The notes below the pieces were generated by a model. The model was not told the DNA's origin. It was given only the letters and a program-made list of their open reading frames with translations, and did not search any database. Made by a program: the position numbers and the translations under genes. A DNA stretch of 36,427 bases from a virus: IMG/VR virus record IMGVR_UViG_3300021247_000288, positions 1-36,427 of that record; one strand, given 5' to 3'. Positions 8,318 to 35,355 of the stretch are shown in pieces (the stretch's first letter is position 1; each line of letters begins with the position of its first letter).

Positions 8318-8998
8318 ATGAGTACACCCGTCAACGGTTCAAATATAACAATGTGGAAGGATGATGCAACCTATGGGCAAATATCCTTTGCCTGTGGGCG
8401 TAGTTGTACGTTCCAAGCAACGCAAAGCCTAAAGGAAGTCACCAACTACCAATCAAACTATTGGAACGAGTATAAGGCCGATATGCTTGGATGGGAAATG
8501 TCAGTAGAGGGCCTTGTCATCAATGGGGATTATTCCTACATTAGACAATTGGCAGATCAAAAGAACAGACAATCGTTTTACATATCGTTTATGGTTGACA
8601 ATGGCCAAGACTTTGCCGTATATTCTGGATATGCTTTCTTTACATCCATAAGCATACAAGGCACCTACGATAGTATGGCCGTGACCAATGCCACGCTACA
8701 AGGAACAGGGTCCTATACCGTATCGGCTACACCTATTTCACCTAATCCAGGTTCAGATATGACATACAAAACTTATTATCAAGGCGTTGGCGGTGAAACA
8801 AGTTTCATCGTTTCCGATTTAATCGGGTGCAATGCACTATTGTATTTTAGCCGTGGCGGAATTGATGGCACTAATATTATTGAAACGGGAACACCAACGG
8901 GAGCAGAAGTGAAAATAGATAGAACAACAGGTACTATTTATTTGGATGCTAGTAATCCTTTAGTTCCTTTAGAATGGTGTAATTTTCTTTTTCGCTAA
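8318..8998 (+). CDS. Second tail-tube-like structural protein
   Basis: 226 residues. Residues 1-135 resemble the TP901-1-type tail tube fold: CGRSCTFQATQSLKEVTNYQ, then WNEYKADMLGWEMSVEGLV and a terminal QGTGSYTVS strand. A C-terminal domain (about 150-226; SDLIGCNALLYFSRGGIDG, TGTIYLDASNPL) looks like a small beta appendage. It follows the distal tail gene, not the tape measure, so it may be a decoration or distal ring subunit. Its last 50 bases overlap the end of the convergent HNH gene. Confidence 0.6.
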   Translation: MSTPVNGSNITMWKDDATYGQISFACGRSCTFQATQSLKEVTNYQSNYWNEYKADMLGWEMSVEGLVINGDYSYIRQLADQKNRQSFYISFMVDNGQDFAVYSGYAFFTSISIQGTYDSMAVTNATLQGTGSYTVSATPISPNPGSDMTYKTYYQGVGGETSFIVSDLIGCNALLYFSRGGIDGTNIIETGTPTGAEVKIDRTTGTIYLDASNPLVPLEWCNFLFR

Positions 8999-9494
8999 GT
9001 GCATTTTGGTATGCGTTATGTGCGTCTATTTCAGATGTGAATTTTCCTAAATGTTTAGTTTTACAGTTAATAGAAATACATGCTGACCATTTGTTTTTAT
9101 ATTTATCCCAACTAACGCCTGTGTATTGGCTAGATTTTTTAGTTGTTAACCTATGTTTAGATACATTTTGCCTTAACGTTATTGCTTGCAAATTACAAAG
9201 TCTGTTATCTGTTTTATTGCCTTCTATTATATGGTCAATTTGAAGATTGGTTTTACCGTTAAAAGTCTCGTATACAAGACGGTGAACTGTTTTACTTAAC
9301 CCCTTACCATTTTTGCGTAAACTAACACTTAAATAACCGCAACTATTTGCATTTTCTTTAAGTATTGTATCAGGTTTTATCATTAAAGCACCATTCCCAC
9401 CTACCCAACTTTTTGCTAATGATTTAATCCTGCCCAAATTAGATGCTTGGTATAAGCCTTCATAATCGGGAATATCTTTCCAAATTTCTGTCAT
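8949..9494 (-). CDS. NUMOD4-HNH-AP2 homing endonuclease (copy D)
   Basis: 181 residues on the minus strand. Residues 1-50 (TEIWKDIPDYEGLYQASNLG) form a NUMOD4 DNA-binding motif. About 70-115 is the HNH nuclease core: VHRLVYETF, QIDHIIEGN, then DNR and NLQ. About 120-168 is an AP2-type DNA-binding domain (SQYTGVSWDKYKNKW..., LGKFTSEIDAHNAYQ). Such free-standing enzymes cut phage DNA at specific sites and spread their own gene. Copies A and C share the architecture. It faces the structural genes and has the structured leader described at 9495-9596. Confidence 0.92.
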   Translation of the reverse strand: MTEIWKDIPDYEGLYQASNLGRIKSLAKSWVGGNGALMIKPDTILKENANSCGYLSVSLRKNGKGLSKTVHRLVYETFNGKTNLQIDHIIEGNKTDNRLCNLQAITLRQNVSKHRLTTKKSSQYTGVSWDKYKNKWSACISINCKTKHLGKFTSEIDAHNAYQNALSEKENYTILKELKDY

Positions 9495-9596
9495 ATTGTT
9501 AAAATAGTGAAGCCTATCCCAAAAAAGCGGTTACGACACTTTAATAGAATAGGCTTCAATTTCTTTATTGCTATCGTAACTAGCATTGCAAATATA
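9495..9596 (-). ncRNA. Kissing-loop leader of HNH copy D
   Basis: On the minus strand: TATATTTG (9596-9589), then hairpin 1 with stem TGCTA/TAGCA (9585-9581 and 9573-9569) and 7-base loop GTTACGA (9580-9574). Hairpin 2 has an outer 9-bp stem GAAGCCTAT/ATAGGCTTC (9557-9549 and 9517-9509) and an inner 6-bp stem (9542-9537 with 9529-9524, one G-U) closing the 7-base loop TCGTAAC. The two loops are exact complements. ATG follows 14 bases after the outer stem. Confidence 0.7.
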
Positions 9597-11970: not shown

Positions 11971-12066
11971 TATCTTTGCATTGCCGTTGCAGGGCAAAAC
12001 AAAAATATTAAAGACCTTTTACAGTGCGGAGCTGCAACCTCCAATCTGTGAAAGGCTTTTTAATTT
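11971..12066 (+). ncRNA. Kissing-loop leader of HNH copy A
   Basis: TATCTTTG at 11971-11978, then hairpin 1: stem TTGCC/GGCAA (11981-11985 and 11993-11997) with 7-base loop GTTGCAG. Hairpin 2 has an outer stem of about 14 bp with one bulge (12010-12024 with 12046-12059) and an apical stem GGAG/CTCC (12028-12031 and 12039-12042) closing the 7-base loop CTGCAAC. The loops are exact complements. ATG 12067 follows the outer stem by about 7 bases. Confidence 0.7.
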
Positions 12067-12609
12067 ATGGTTATGCAAGAAGTTTGGAAAGACGTTTTGG
12101 ATTATGAAGGACTGTACCAAGTTAGTGATTTGGGTAGAATTAAGTCATTGCCAAAAACTTGGGTAGGTGGGAATGGTTGTGTTAGAGTTAAAAAGGAAAC
12201 AATTTTATCTCCAGTTTTAGATAGTAGGCGCTACTATAATGTATTGTTATCTAAAAATGGCATACAAAAAAGATTTAAAATACATAGGTTAGTTTATGAG
12301 GCATTTAACGGAAAAACAACATTACAAATAGATCATATTGTTGAGGGAAATAGATGGGATAACCGCTTACTCAATCTTCAGACTTTGACACAAAGACAAA
12401 ATTCTACTAAATATTTTTTAACTACAAAAAAGGCTAGTAAATATACAGGTGTTTATTGGCATAAACAAAGGCTTAAATGGTATTCAAAAATACAAATTAA
12501 TGGGAAAAATAAAAATCTAGGTTTATTTGCAAATGAAATAGACGCTCATAATGCCTACCAATCCGAGCTAACTAGCTTACAACTACCTTATAGCATTAAA
12601 GTAAACTAA
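12067..12609 (+). CDS. NUMOD4-HNH-AP2 homing endonuclease (copy A)
   Basis: 180 residues; ATG 12073 is an alternative start that matches the other copies better (MQEVWKD). NUMOD4 spans about 3-50 (EVWKDVLDYEGLYQVSDLG), HNH about 70-115 (IHRLVYEAF, QIDHIVEGN, DNRLLNLQ), and AP2 about 122-170 (SKYTGVYWHKQRLKW, LGLFANEIDAHNAYQ). It interrupts the lysis region. Two copies of AAACTAAATAA lie just after its coding end, at 12603 and 12618. Confidence 0.92.
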   Translation: MVMQEVWKDVLDYEGLYQVSDLGRIKSLPKTWVGGNGCVRVKKETILSPVLDSRRYYNVLLSKNGIQKRFKIHRLVYEAFNGKTTLQIDHIVEGNRWDNRLLNLQTLTQRQNSTKYFLTTKKASKYTGVYWHKQRLKWYSKIQINGKNKNLGLFANEIDAHNAYQSELTSLQLPYSIKVN

Positions 12610-14288: not shown

Positions 14289-14390
14289 TATATTTGTATT
14301 GTGTCTGCAAGCACAATTTAATAACTTTTTTAGGCTATTCTAATTAGTTCGTCTTGCAGCGGATTAATTGGTTTAGCCTATTTTATTTTT
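14289..14390 (+). ncRNA. Kissing-loop leader of HNH copy B
   Basis: TATATTTG at 14289-14296 abuts the endolysin TAG. Hairpin 1 is ATTGTG/CACAAT (14298-14303 and 14312-14317) with 8-base loop TCTGCAAG. Hairpin 2 has an outer stem TAGGCTA/TAGCCTA (14331-14337 and 14374-14380), an inner 10-bp stem (14342-14351 with 14360-14369, two G-U pairs), and 8-base loop TCTTGCAG. CTGCAAG and CTTGCAG are exact complements. ATG follows by 10 bases. Confidence 0.7.
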
Positions 14391-14966
14391 ATGGAAATTT
14401 GGAAAGACGTTAAAGGCTATGAGGGCCTGTATCAAGTGTCAAACAAAGGAAATGTAAAAGCATATCCTAGAACAAGTATTGGCGGTTTTGGCGCAGTAAA
14501 TTATAGGCCAGAACATTACATGAAGCAATATCAAACTAAAATTGGTTATTTGACTGTTAGGCTTAGTAAAAATCAAAAAGGGAAAAATATAACTGTTCAC
14601 CGTTTAGTTGCTGAGGCGTTTTTGGATAATCCTGAAAACAAAATAACTGTTAATCATATTAATGGCATTAAAAATGATAACAATTTAATCAACCTAGAAT
14701 GGGCAACGTATAAAGAAAATAACAACCATGCTTATGAAAATGGTTTAAATACTAGATTAAAAGGTAAAGATCACCCGTTTTTTGGTGGCAATAATCCTAA
14801 AATGATAAAAGTAAAACCAAAACAAATTAGGTGCTATTGTACTAAAAATGACATTTATTTTGATACAATAATAGAAGCGGCTATATATGCAAAAAGGCCA
14901 AGAACGGTATTAGTAAGTATGTTAAATGGCAAAAGAACAAACACAACTTCTATTGCTAAGGTTTAA
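14391..14966 (+). CDS. NUMOD4-HNH homing endonuclease with NUMOD1-like tail (copy B)
   Basis: 191 residues. NUMOD4 covers about 1-50 (MEIWKDVKGYEGLYQVSNKG) and HNH about 65-110 (VHRLVAEAF, NHINGIKNDN, NLEWATYKENNNHA). Instead of AP2, the C-terminus (about 140-188) looks like an intron-encoded nuclease repeat or NUMOD1 helix-turn-helix: YFDTIIEAAIYAKRP...LNGKR. This copy therefore belongs to a different subfamily from A, C and D, yet has the same kind of leader. It follows the endolysin. Confidence 0.9.
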   Translation: MEIWKDVKGYEGLYQVSNKGNVKAYPRTSIGGFGAVNYRPEHYMKQYQTKIGYLTVRLSKNQKGKNITVHRLVAEAFLDNPENKITVNHINGIKNDNNLINLEWATYKENNNHAYENGLNTRLKGKDHPFFGGNNPKMIKVKPKQIRCYCTKNDIYFDTIIEAAIYAKRPRTVLVSMLNGKRTNTTSIAKV

Positions 14967-18695: not shown

Positions 18696-18799
18696 AGTCA
18701 GGTGGCGGAATGGTAGACGCCCATGCTTAGGCGGAGTAACACATATTGATAAGTACATTCTTTGGTGTGTTAATACAGGTTCAAATCCTGTCCTGACTA
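18696..18799 (+). tRNA. tRNA-Leu-like gene, anticodon probably UAG, degenerate anticodon arm
   Basis: Acceptor stem AGTCAGG/CCTGACT (18696-18702 and 18792-18798) is a perfect 7 bp. The D arm is GCG-GAATGGTAGA-CGC, the T arm ACAGG-TTCAAAT-CCTGT, and the long variable arm TAACACA/TGTGTTA (18737-18743 and 18766-18772) indicates class II, with a Leu-like GGTGGCGGAATGGTAGACGC start. CTTAGGC at 18726-18732 would be the anticodon loop with TAG, but the flanking bases do not form a stem. The variable arm is unusually long and CCA is not encoded. It may be nonfunctional or specialised. Confidence 0.65.
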
Positions 18800-25706: not shown

Positions 25707-26369
25707 ATGCTACTCTACAAATTCGCCACCCGCTCACGCCCTGACAAGTTCAAGGCGGCTATTGACAACATAGCCAAACTATCTACGCAACCCTACCATG
25801 TGCGCATATCGGCGGACGCGGATGATACAACGATGTTCAACTTTGCCATGATGCGTTGGATAGGGGAACGGCCTGAACTGTCTATCCGCTACGGTACTAA
25901 GGTTAGTAAGATTGAAGCGGTCAACCGTGACATGGATATATTACCCGATTGGGATATTGTTGTGGGTATGAGCGATGACATGGAATTTACTGTCAAGGGT
26001 TTTGACGAACAGATAGTTAACGCATTTGGTGGGGATTATGACCAGTTGGTACATTTCCCGGATGGGTATGTCAATGAGAAGTTAGTTACACTACCGATAA
26101 TGGGTAGGGCTTACTATGATCGATTTGGGTATATCTACCATCCTACATACAAATCCCTTTGGGCAGATAATGACCAAATGGAAACCGCTATTATGTTAGG
26201 AAAATATAAATACGTAAATAAAAATATCTACAAACACCAACATCCTGCATGGACTGGGGCAGCAGTTGATTCTTTACTTAAAGAAACACAAGCCTTTTAC
26301 AGGGAAGACGAAATAAATTATTTGCGCCGCAAAAAACATGGATTTCCAAAAGAAAATGTGTATATTTGA
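25707..26369 (+). CDS. Glycosyltransferase-like protein
   Basis: 220 residues. Begins LLYKFATRSRPDKFKAAIDN, typical for viral nucleotide-sugar transferase-like proteins, with WDIVVGMSDDMEF holding a DD metal-binding-like pair near 89-95, and SLWADNDQMETAIMLGKY later. It starts at the aacactATG signature. The final codons (GTG TAT ATT TGA) contain the TATATTTG box of the following HNH element. Confidence 0.6.
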   Translation: MLLYKFATRSRPDKFKAAIDNIAKLSTQPYHVRISADADDTTMFNFAMMRWIGERPELSIRYGTKVSKIEAVNRDMDILPDWDIVVGMSDDMEFTVKGFDEQIVNAFGGDYDQLVHFPDGYVNEKLVTLPIMGRAYYDRFGYIYHPTYKSLWADNDQMETAIMLGKYKYVNKNIYKHQHPAWTGAAVDSLLKETQAFYREDEINYLRRKKHGFPKENVYI

Positions 26370-26476
26370 AGTGCTCAATCACTAAAATGAAAACATTTAA
26401 AACTTTCCCCGAAACAGATTGTCCACGCGCAAATGCGCTAGTGGTTGAGCCTTTCTGTCTAGGGGATTTTTTTATT
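26361..26476 (+). ncRNA. Structured leader of HNH copy C (divergent form)
   Basis: TATATTTG at 26361-26368 overlaps the preceding stop. Hairpin 1 is AGTG/CACT (26370-26373 and 26380-26383) with loop CTCAAT. Hairpin 2 is CCCC...GGGG (26407-26410 and 26462-26465) plus ACAG/CTGT, with apical CCAC-GCGC-AAAT-GCGC-TA-GTGG. GCTCAATCACT (26373-26383) is complementary to AGTGGTTGAGC (26440-26450) apart from one G-U. The partner is not in the apical loop, so this copy differs. ATG follows the stem by 11 bases. Confidence 0.55.
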
Positions 26477-26989
26477 ATGGAAACAGAAATATGGAAAGAC
26501 GTAGAAGGATTTGAAGGTTTATATCAGGTGTCAAATTTTGGTATGGTAAAAAGCCTTGCTAGGTTTTTTATAGGTGGTAATGGTTCTATTATTCAAAAAA
26601 AAGATACATTTATAAAATTTGGTAAAGATACTAGCGGTTATTATCAAATAGCTTTGTATAAAAACGGGAAAGTGAAGAGAGTTAAAGTGCACAGGTTAGT
26701 ATATGAAACATTTATAGGGAAAACTAATCTGCAAATAGATCATATTATTGAGGGTAATAAGTTGGATAATAGGATAGAAAATTTACAACCTGTAACTAAT
26801 AGAGAAAACATATCTAAGCATAAATTGACAAAAAATAAATCTAGCCAATACACAGGTGTTTGTCTTAATAAAAAGACAAATAGATGGGGTGCTAGAATTT
26901 ATATGAATGGGAAATACAAGCATATTGGTTATTTTTCAACAGAAATAGAAGCCGCACAAGCATACCAAGATAAACTTAACACACTATGA
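26477..26989 (+). CDS. NUMOD4-HNH-AP2 homing endonuclease (copy C)
   Basis: 170 residues from ATG 26477; upstream in-frame codons lie in the leader. NUMOD4 (METEIWKDVEGFEGLYQVSN), HNH core (VHRLVYETF, QIDHIIEGN, DNRIENLQ) and AP2 (SQYTGVCLNKKTNRW, GYFSTEIEAAQAYQ) are all present. It is inserted between two glycosyltransferase genes inside the terminase interval. Its TGA overlaps the next ATG by four bases. Confidence 0.92.
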   Translation: METEIWKDVEGFEGLYQVSNFGMVKSLARFFIGGNGSIIQKKDTFIKFGKDTSGYYQIALYKNGKVKRVKVHRLVYETFIGKTNLQIDHIIEGNKLDNRIENLQPVTNRENISKHKLTKNKSSQYTGVCLNKKTNRWGARIYMNGKYKHIGYFSTEIEAAQAYQDKLNTL

Positions 26990-35257: not shown

Positions 35258-35283
35258 GTTACTAGATTATGTAGAAAGTTATG

Positions 35284-35355
35284 TATCTTCACCACCTAGC
35301 AGTTCTCATAGTGTTTAATTAAGGGCCTGACGTTTCTACGTTGGGCTATTTTTTT
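35284..35355 (+). ncRNA. Possible small RNA complementary to start sites
   Basis: Between two terminators lies a -7-like TATCTTCA (35284-35291), then CATAGTGTTT at 35307-35316, which is the exact complement of AAACACTATG, and a terminator hairpin at 35325-35355. It may be a small antisense RNA. It may instead be a remnant of a minus-strand gene whose start was lost (a 5-codon ORF follows the ATG on that strand). Confidence 0.25.
35325..35355 (+). terminator. Second terminator
   Basis: GCCTGACG (35325-35332) and CGTTGGGC (35339-35346) pair over 8 bp with two G-U, loop TTTCTA, followed by TA and TTTTTTT (35349-35355). It precedes the glycosyltransferase gene by 50 bases. No gene is seen in the 196 bases between 35210 and 35405. 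Confidence 0.7.

Follow-up and report, generated by a model that had tools for sequence, protein, structure and literature searches.

The viral DNA studied here (the window, a stretch of 36,427 nt taken as a whole) carries four genes for homing endonucleases, in all of which NUMOD4 and HNH_3 domains were found. A first-pass annotation had proposed that each of them is preceded by an RNA leader in which the loops of two hairpins pair with each other. This locus raises the question of whether such a kissing-loop fold is maintained by selection, whether it is peculiar to endonuclease genes, and what it might do for the transcripts that carry it.

Leaders of the four endonuclease genes in the window

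We refer to the 7-10 nt loop of hairpin 1 as K, and to its reverse complement in the apical loop of hairpin 2 as K'. Copy D lies on the minus strand and comprises the -7 promoter box TATATTTG (9596-9589; box position according to PMC9723704), hairpin 1 (TGCTA-GTTACGA-TAGCA, 9569..9585, whose first base is the predicted +1; K GTTACGA, 9580-9574), and hairpin 2 (9509..9557; K' TCGTAAC in the apical loop, 9536-9530). It precedes a gene for a NUMOD4-HNH_3-AP2 homing endonuclease of 181 aa (8949..9494, ATG at 9494) that is inserted between a tail-tube-like gene and, on the other strand, a Peptidase_S74 gene. The remaining copies are on the plus strand. The -7 box of copy A (TATCTTTG, 11971..11978) is positioned immediately 3' of the stop codon of the upstream ORF and is followed by hairpin 1 (TTGCC-GTTGCAG-GGCAA, 11981..11997; K GTTGCAG, 11986-11992) and by hairpin 2 (12015..12055; K' CTGCAAC, 12032-12038), which possesses a 3x3 internal loop and precedes a T run; the NUMOD4-HNH_3 gene (180 aa, 12067..12609) has an in-frame ATG at 12073 as an alternative to the annotated start at 12067. 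In copy B, the -7 box TATATTTG (14289..14296) likewise abuts the upstream stop codon, and hairpin 1 (ATTGTG/CACAAT, 14298..14317; K CTGCAAG, 14305-14311), hairpin 2 (14331..14380; K' CTTGCAG, 14353-14359), a T-rich spacer, and a NUMOD4-HNH_3 gene of 191 aa (14391..14966) follow. The -7 box of copy C (TATATTTG, 26361..26368) overlaps the upstream stop codon; downstream of it are a weak hairpin 1 (AGTG/CACT, 26370..26383; K GCTCAA, 26373-26378), a hairpin 2 with an extra inner hairpin (26407..26465) in which K' (TTGAGC) is displaced to 26445-26450, and a NUMOD4-HNH_3-AP2 gene of 170 aa (26477..26989), whose reading frame has no stop codon across the leader either. The distance from box to ATG is 96, 102, 116, and 102 nt in copies A, B, C, and D, respectively; the gap between upstream stop codon and box, zero in A and B, has a median of 11 nt in relatives.

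The exact 7-base K/K' complements claimed for copies A, B, and D proved correct in every letter and coordinate. Minimum-energy RNA folds of these copies, calculated without pseudoknots, consist of hairpin 1 and hairpin 2 with the 7-mers in or at the loops, and the z-scores of the folds were -4.4 (A), -6.1 (B), and -5.8 (D), with -2.8 for copy C. In a scan anchored to the TAnnTTT box, copies A, B, and D scored 28.6, 29.8, and 29.0, while the noise had its maximum at 22.8 over ten shuffles and at 21.6 among the other sites of the window; the sites above the shuffle maximum (A, B, and D) were all located directly 5' of NUMOD4-HNH genes. When the 36 kb were searched without this anchor for a hairpin, its loop, and a complement in a second hairpin, chance sites scored equally high, so that without the promoter anchor the finding would be weak and the scan is unusable.

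Copy C had been described as keeping the complementarity with its partner displaced from the apical loop. A pairing off the apical loop is indeed present, but it comprises just 6 bp (GCTCAA/TTGAGC), pushed aside by the extra inner hairpin, and its score of 18.6 falls within the noise. It is only because of its position and the gene behind it that we consider copy C as a probably degenerate or decayed copy of the leader. Our covariance model R1 matched copy A at 11971-12069 (E 1.3e-5) and copy C at 26361-26479 (E 0.21) and missed copies B and D in the window; hence, R1 covers only part of the leader diversity.

The other genes of the window are without a leader, and the kissing-loop fold is confined to HNH genes there. 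We rejected a candidate fifth leader at 35268, since it has a 7-bp match but neither a TAnnTTTG box nor a stem 1. At this site (35268-35352, plus strand), GTAGAAA ... TTTCTAC are complementary, a GCCTGACG/CGTTGGGC hairpin is present, and a glycosyltransferase-like ORF lies downstream; the site represents either a decayed leader or a chance match.

The first-pass annotation did not recognize the two-loop architecture, and Rfam searches agree with this: there was no leader match above the gathering cut-off for the window, for 20 loci, or for one leader at a loose threshold, where chance matches alone appeared. We found no published description of the fold in the open-access literature. A separate observation from the Rfam search concerns positions 18696-18799 (plus strand) of the window, which match the tRNA family with 41.7 bits; the acceptor, D, and T arms are intact, the anticodon arm contains about 36 extra bases, and ARAGORN makes no call. 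This is possibly an interrupted tRNA gene.

Pairing between loops and stems among relatives

To score the leader beyond the window, NUMOD4-HNH relatives were collected from viral contigs and cultured phages, which yielded 208 distinct upstream regions. Scores of at least 18 were attained by 47 of the 208, compared with 1.1 expected from dinucleotide shuffles, and scores of at least 20 by 26 (0.2 expected); where a TAnnTTTG box is present 85-128 nt before the ATG, 39 of 51 upstream regions passed. The geometry of these HNH leaders is tight: K mostly lies 9-10 nt past the box, K' 44-55 nt past K, the linker between the hairpins is A-rich, and hairpin 2 mostly ends 8-14 nt before the ATG. In one subfamily, hairpin 2 possesses a symmetric internal loop UGAU/UGAU with a recurrent tandem UGA/UGA, as exemplified by a contig leader with the arrangement CCCACTT-TGAT-AAG-A[CGACGAC]-CTT-TGAT-AAGTGGG (L132). 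In 3.0 Mb of fetched DNA, 78 distinct matches scored at least 24, against 4 in an equal amount of shuffled DNA, and 68 of the 78 have the start of a same-strand ORF downstream.

Two further kinds of upstream region were encountered. Three contigs (L263, L326, and L369) carry a subtype with TAAGTTTGCA-type boxes and an 8-nt K such as GGTTCGAC or GGTCTCAC, which in L263 is located 5' of a 93-aa ORF. A second leader type upstream of HNH genes (L005, L080, L431, L083, L151, L114, and L115) has K at its 5' end, followed by a covarying hairpin with a TAATTA-containing loop (GATGT-CTAATTA-ACATC versus GAAGT-CTAATTA-ACTTC) and, further on, by a hairpin whose loop contains K'.

The claim that the loops change in sequence while their pairing is kept, as expected from compensatory change, was borne out among the homologous HNH leaders. 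Thirty-four diverged representatives carry 30 distinct K sequences; each K (34/34) is complementary to the apical window of its own leader, which is so by selection since they were chosen by score and pairing, and reaches 6 bp with the windows of other leaders in only 3.3%. In an HNH subfamily of 8 sequences (A5), 172/172 cells hold standard pairs and 11 pairs have changed on both sides; the covariation score was reached by 0 of 500 shuffles and was lost when the partners were slid by 1-3 columns. A group of 5 leaders of native phage genes (A8) behaved alike, with 140/140 cells paired, 12 double-changed pairs, 0/500 shuffles reaching the score, and all signal lost in the sliding control. Covariation is found in all four helices of both A5 and A8, as judged against shuffles that ignore phylogeny. 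Since MAFFT misaligns distant subfamilies, we counted broad covariation on anchored K/K' positions. Orthologous genes for a 70-aa protein in phages tooticki, morran, and Cellulophaga phi18:3 and in a metagenome phage differ in K and keep the complement.

Two scans that were blind to the K/K' pairing still recovered it. A hairpin-2 pattern returned 7 matches that possessed the outer stem and had K on the 5' side, each of them in front of a nuclease-like ORF; a few unrelated chance matches accompanied them, and the background amounted to about 110 unrelated matches. The second pattern, consisting of the box and hairpin 1, found FCV-1, the Moomin phages, and the contigs L521, L525/L541, and L545; every match with a TAnnTTTG box and an early-gene context possessed a perfect 8-nt complement, while matches outside that context were unrelated coding sequence.

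Chance complementarity chosen by the search, or shared ancestry, could in principle mimic such a pattern: the representatives were picked by score, the shuffles contain no tree model, and some K recur (GTCGTCG, GGTCTGAC), which indicates common descent of those leaders. However, this explanation is hardly credible in view of the excesses over shuffled sequence (47, 26, and 78 matches), the diversity of K, the sliding controls, and the scans blind to pairing. Taken together, these comparisons argue that the two-hairpin, loop-loop-paired fold is real and selected.

Genes and cassettes that carry the leader

A covariance-model search of phage DNA, advised earlier as a check, recovered the same fold, including in front of genes other than endonucleases. 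The view of the leader as a device specific for HNH genes, which was also our impression from the first samples, was dropped once native genes with the same fold had been found. The non-HNH occurrences, detected with the covariance model and a descriptor, precede genes for a replication initiator (Polaribacter phage P12002L, 34477, minus strand), a DnaD-like helicase loader (L404), DNA helicases (L405 and L539), a Dda-like helicase and an AAA_24/Sak4-like protein (both L521), an N6/N4 DNA methyltransferase (L541), a 69-aa protein of FCV-1 (phrog_7002), a family of 70-aa proteins (tooticki, morran, Cellulophaga phi18:3, L545, and G004), and a small gene of Flavobacterium phage 11b. The fold is also present before a GIY-YIG gene (L301); no second example was found among the GIY-YIG relatives checked. 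Cultured phages with the fold are Flavobacterium phages FCV-1 and 11b and the Moomin phages, Polaribacter phage P12002L, and Cellulophaga phage phi18:3. Since the loci were fetched mostly via HNH proteins, the share of endonuclease genes is overestimated.

Several individual contigs deserve mention. The 9.5-kb viral contig L541 carries five leaders on the minus strand (1939, 2909, 4008, 5381, and 9170), with the methyltransferase, a 146-aa protein, an HNH gene, a member of the 70-aa family, and a small ORF downstream of them. The Dda-like helicase ORF of L521 (2127-3737, minus strand; 537 aa) has an HNH domain at its C-terminus; a tblastn search with the Dda-like helicase gave no matches. A match assigned to 'Methylophaga' (L451) has 32% GC and may stem from a misbinned phage contig.

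In the first halves of crAss001 and phi14:2, all scores were within the noise. About 800 Bacteroidota host genomes gave, under stringent filters, one R1 match, a weak negative as ten candidates were scored per genome; this match (L507, Bacteroidota) lies before a 118-aa cysteine-rich ORF and is probably a prophage. Near absence from host genomes would suit a landing site at which a phage protein or, as with the put RNAs of phage HK022, RNA polymerase itself recognizes the nascent leader and alters the elongation or timing of a gene set, and so would the occurrence of several copies in one phage, at the transcript start of a coherent set of DNA-replication and endonuclease genes, and the recurrent tandem UGA/UGA loop of one subfamily. 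Yet the subfamilies share almost no sequence, whereas factor-binding RNAs usually keep some, and we hold this explanation to be distinctly improbable.

Comparison of filled and empty sites shows what the endonuclease cassettes comprise. At filled sites, the additional DNA begins near the stop codon of the upstream gene and ends at the downstream gene, and the box, the leader, and the HNH gene all lie within it. This was seen in the Flavobacterium columnare phages FCV-1 (filled) and FCL-2 (empty), in the Moomin phages tooticki and filifjonk, and in the Polaribacter phages P12002L and P12002S. Empty sites were established for three relatives; none was found for the window copies themselves. On one side of the cassettes, the flanking sequence has diverged, which is what co-conversion would produce. 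The leader belongs to the inserted endonuclease cassette; judged by sequence, the promoter and leader that the cassettes bring along are of the type found on genes native to the phages.

It is conceivable that the inverted repeats act as DNA, as promoter operators through which the endonuclease represses its own gene: stem 1 overlaps the start site, and autorepression is known from I-TevI (PMC2988022). An operator would, however, need neither the G-U pairs in the covarying stems, nor the freely varying arms, nor a K-K' match over 45-55 nt; non-endonuclease genes have the same fold, and its orientation is always sense to the gene. The G-U stem pairs, the sense orientation, and the remoteness of K' point to RNA, and a DNA operator is a very improbable explanation.

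Possible roles of the leader and comparison with known systems

The TAnnTTTG box of Flavobacterium psychrophilum promoters is located at -12 to -5 (PMC9723704), which would place +1 at the first bases of stem 1. This answers the earlier concern that transcription might begin inside hairpin 1: the predicted start is not in the loop, and stem 1 is short by 1-4 bp in some copies when the transcript begins at the predicted +1. Stem 1 most often begins at +1; its starts mostly fall between -2 and +2, with a deviation of no more than about 3 nt in the majority of copies. The promoter consensus thus suggests that RNA from the leader's own promoter would include hairpin 1. The layout of the class is a host-type TAnnTTTG box, hairpin 1 at the predicted +1, a linker, and a stronger hairpin 2 with K'. 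For leaders cut at +1, the median energies are -2.5 kcal/mol for hairpin 1, -10.2 for K-K', and -13.3 for hairpin 2. In about a quarter of the leaders, truncation at this point leaves no stable hairpin 1, so that their 5' end may be single-stranded and pair as such with loop 2.

The reading that we favor, with a confidence somewhat short of even, is that of a cis-acting 5' leader RNA in phages of Flavobacterium-like bacteria, whose closed kissing-loop 5' end tunes the stability or expression of the mRNA. The first 80 nt or so would fold into one closed unit. Since hairpin 1 is weak alone and the K-K' helix strong, the loop-loop helix would keep hairpin 1 shut and lock the 5' end onto hairpin 2. 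This closure would most likely shield the mRNA from 5'-dependent decay and separate the transcript from upstream sequence; the argument for 5'-end protection comes from two features, the strict +1 position and the cooperative energetics. A leader type shared with phage replication genes would provide an inserted gene with its own promoter and a regulated mRNA. It is also possible, and we put this forward tentatively, that the leader is a phage regulatory RNA of a new class, by which replication, methyltransferase, and small early-protein transcripts are tagged for a common control step exerted by host or phage machinery, and that the cassettes acquired this tag and follow that programme.

The position of hairpin 2 relative to the ATG bears on the proposal that folding gates translation. 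A gate in which hairpin 2, inside the 30S footprint, blocks endonuclease translation from read-through or early RNA, with the kissing interaction setting its stability, fits the spacing of 8-14 nt in most HNH leaders and an A-U extension toward the ATG in some folds, and it has precedents in I-TevI, segB, and Aeh1 mobE of T-even phages (PMC2988022). Against it, some native genes have 26-54 nt between the end of hairpin 2 and the ATG, so that gating of the ribosome binding site is not the common function; the start codon and spacer are unpaired in the core fold, there is no Shine-Dalgarno sequence to hide, and own-promoter and read-through RNA fold alike, unlike in I-TevI. We consider a gate unlikely as the general explanation. 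The proposal stands as a possibility for the HNH genes: within the favored stability reading, hairpin 2 of the endonuclease cassettes would lie inside the expected ribosome footprint and probably also lower translation there.

The spacer behind hairpin 2 invites another explanation, namely that hairpin 2 and the T run form an intrinsic terminator before the gene, an attenuator or insulator whose read-through is set by the kissing helix. The spacer is 72% T, against 27% T before other window genes; at least TTTT is present within 8 nt in 33/46 HNH leaders, which would also fit a terminator, and the outer stems often are CCC/GGG. But native copies vary in this respect, and native-type leaders such as FCV-1 35865 are without an immediate T run; a terminator scanner does not call the long interrupted stems, and strong termination within an operon would exert polarity on the phage genes that follow. 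We regard this explanation as quite unlikely.

Structured 5' leaders are little described in phages of Bacteroidota. The hosts are without Shine-Dalgarno signals, which gives weight to the question of how phage genes are timed and tuned in them, and the leader offers a defined RNA fold, absent from Rfam, that occurs in cultured phages. Its free sequence and strict pairing permit a direct test: break K, break K', and restore both.

Among known systems, the closest setting is that of the T-even homing endonucleases, which are controlled by hairpins at the ribosome binding site and nested promoters (PMC2988022). The hairpins of I-TevI, I-TevII, I-TevIII, segB, and Aeh1 mobE likewise place structured RNA just 5' of an endonuclease gene, and that of seg43 from Aeromonas phage 25 ends just before the initiation site (PMC2988022), as in the kissing-loop leaders. 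In contrast, the T-even structures are single hairpins that mostly hide a Shine-Dalgarno site and contain a late promoter, so that late RNA has no fold (PMC2988022), whereas our leaders have two loop-joined hairpins, no Shine-Dalgarno site, and the promoter box before hairpin 1. In the minimum-energy core of the leaders, neither the ATG nor its spacer is part of hairpin 1 or 2, and, unlike the T-even hairpins, the fold is common to endonuclease and non-endonuclease genes. With the setting shared but pairing of the ribosome binding site and a promoter within the hairpin absent, the leaders are not members of the T-even group. Rfam gave no match to the HEARO/IscB omega RNA or another RNA of RNA-guided nucleases, and the ORFs downstream of the leaders encode NUMOD4-HNH_3, GIY-YIG, or replication proteins, not IscB-type proteins.

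By architecture, as deduced from their sequences, the leaders are intramolecular kissing-loop RNAs. In ColE1 RNAI-RNAII and in P2-P3 of the purine riboswitch, hairpin loops of about 7-8 nt are nearly fully paired with each other; by comparison, the leader pairs within one RNA, its loops vary freely, and neither a ligand core nor an antisense partner was seen in the leaders. E. coli ompA represents mRNAs with a stabilizing stem-loop at the very 5' end; stem 1 of the leader, in contrast, has too little stability by itself and seems to rely on the kissing helix. The put RNAs of phage HK022 also place two hairpins at the start of early transcripts, but their sequence is conserved for polymerase binding, whereas the leaders conserve the pairing only.
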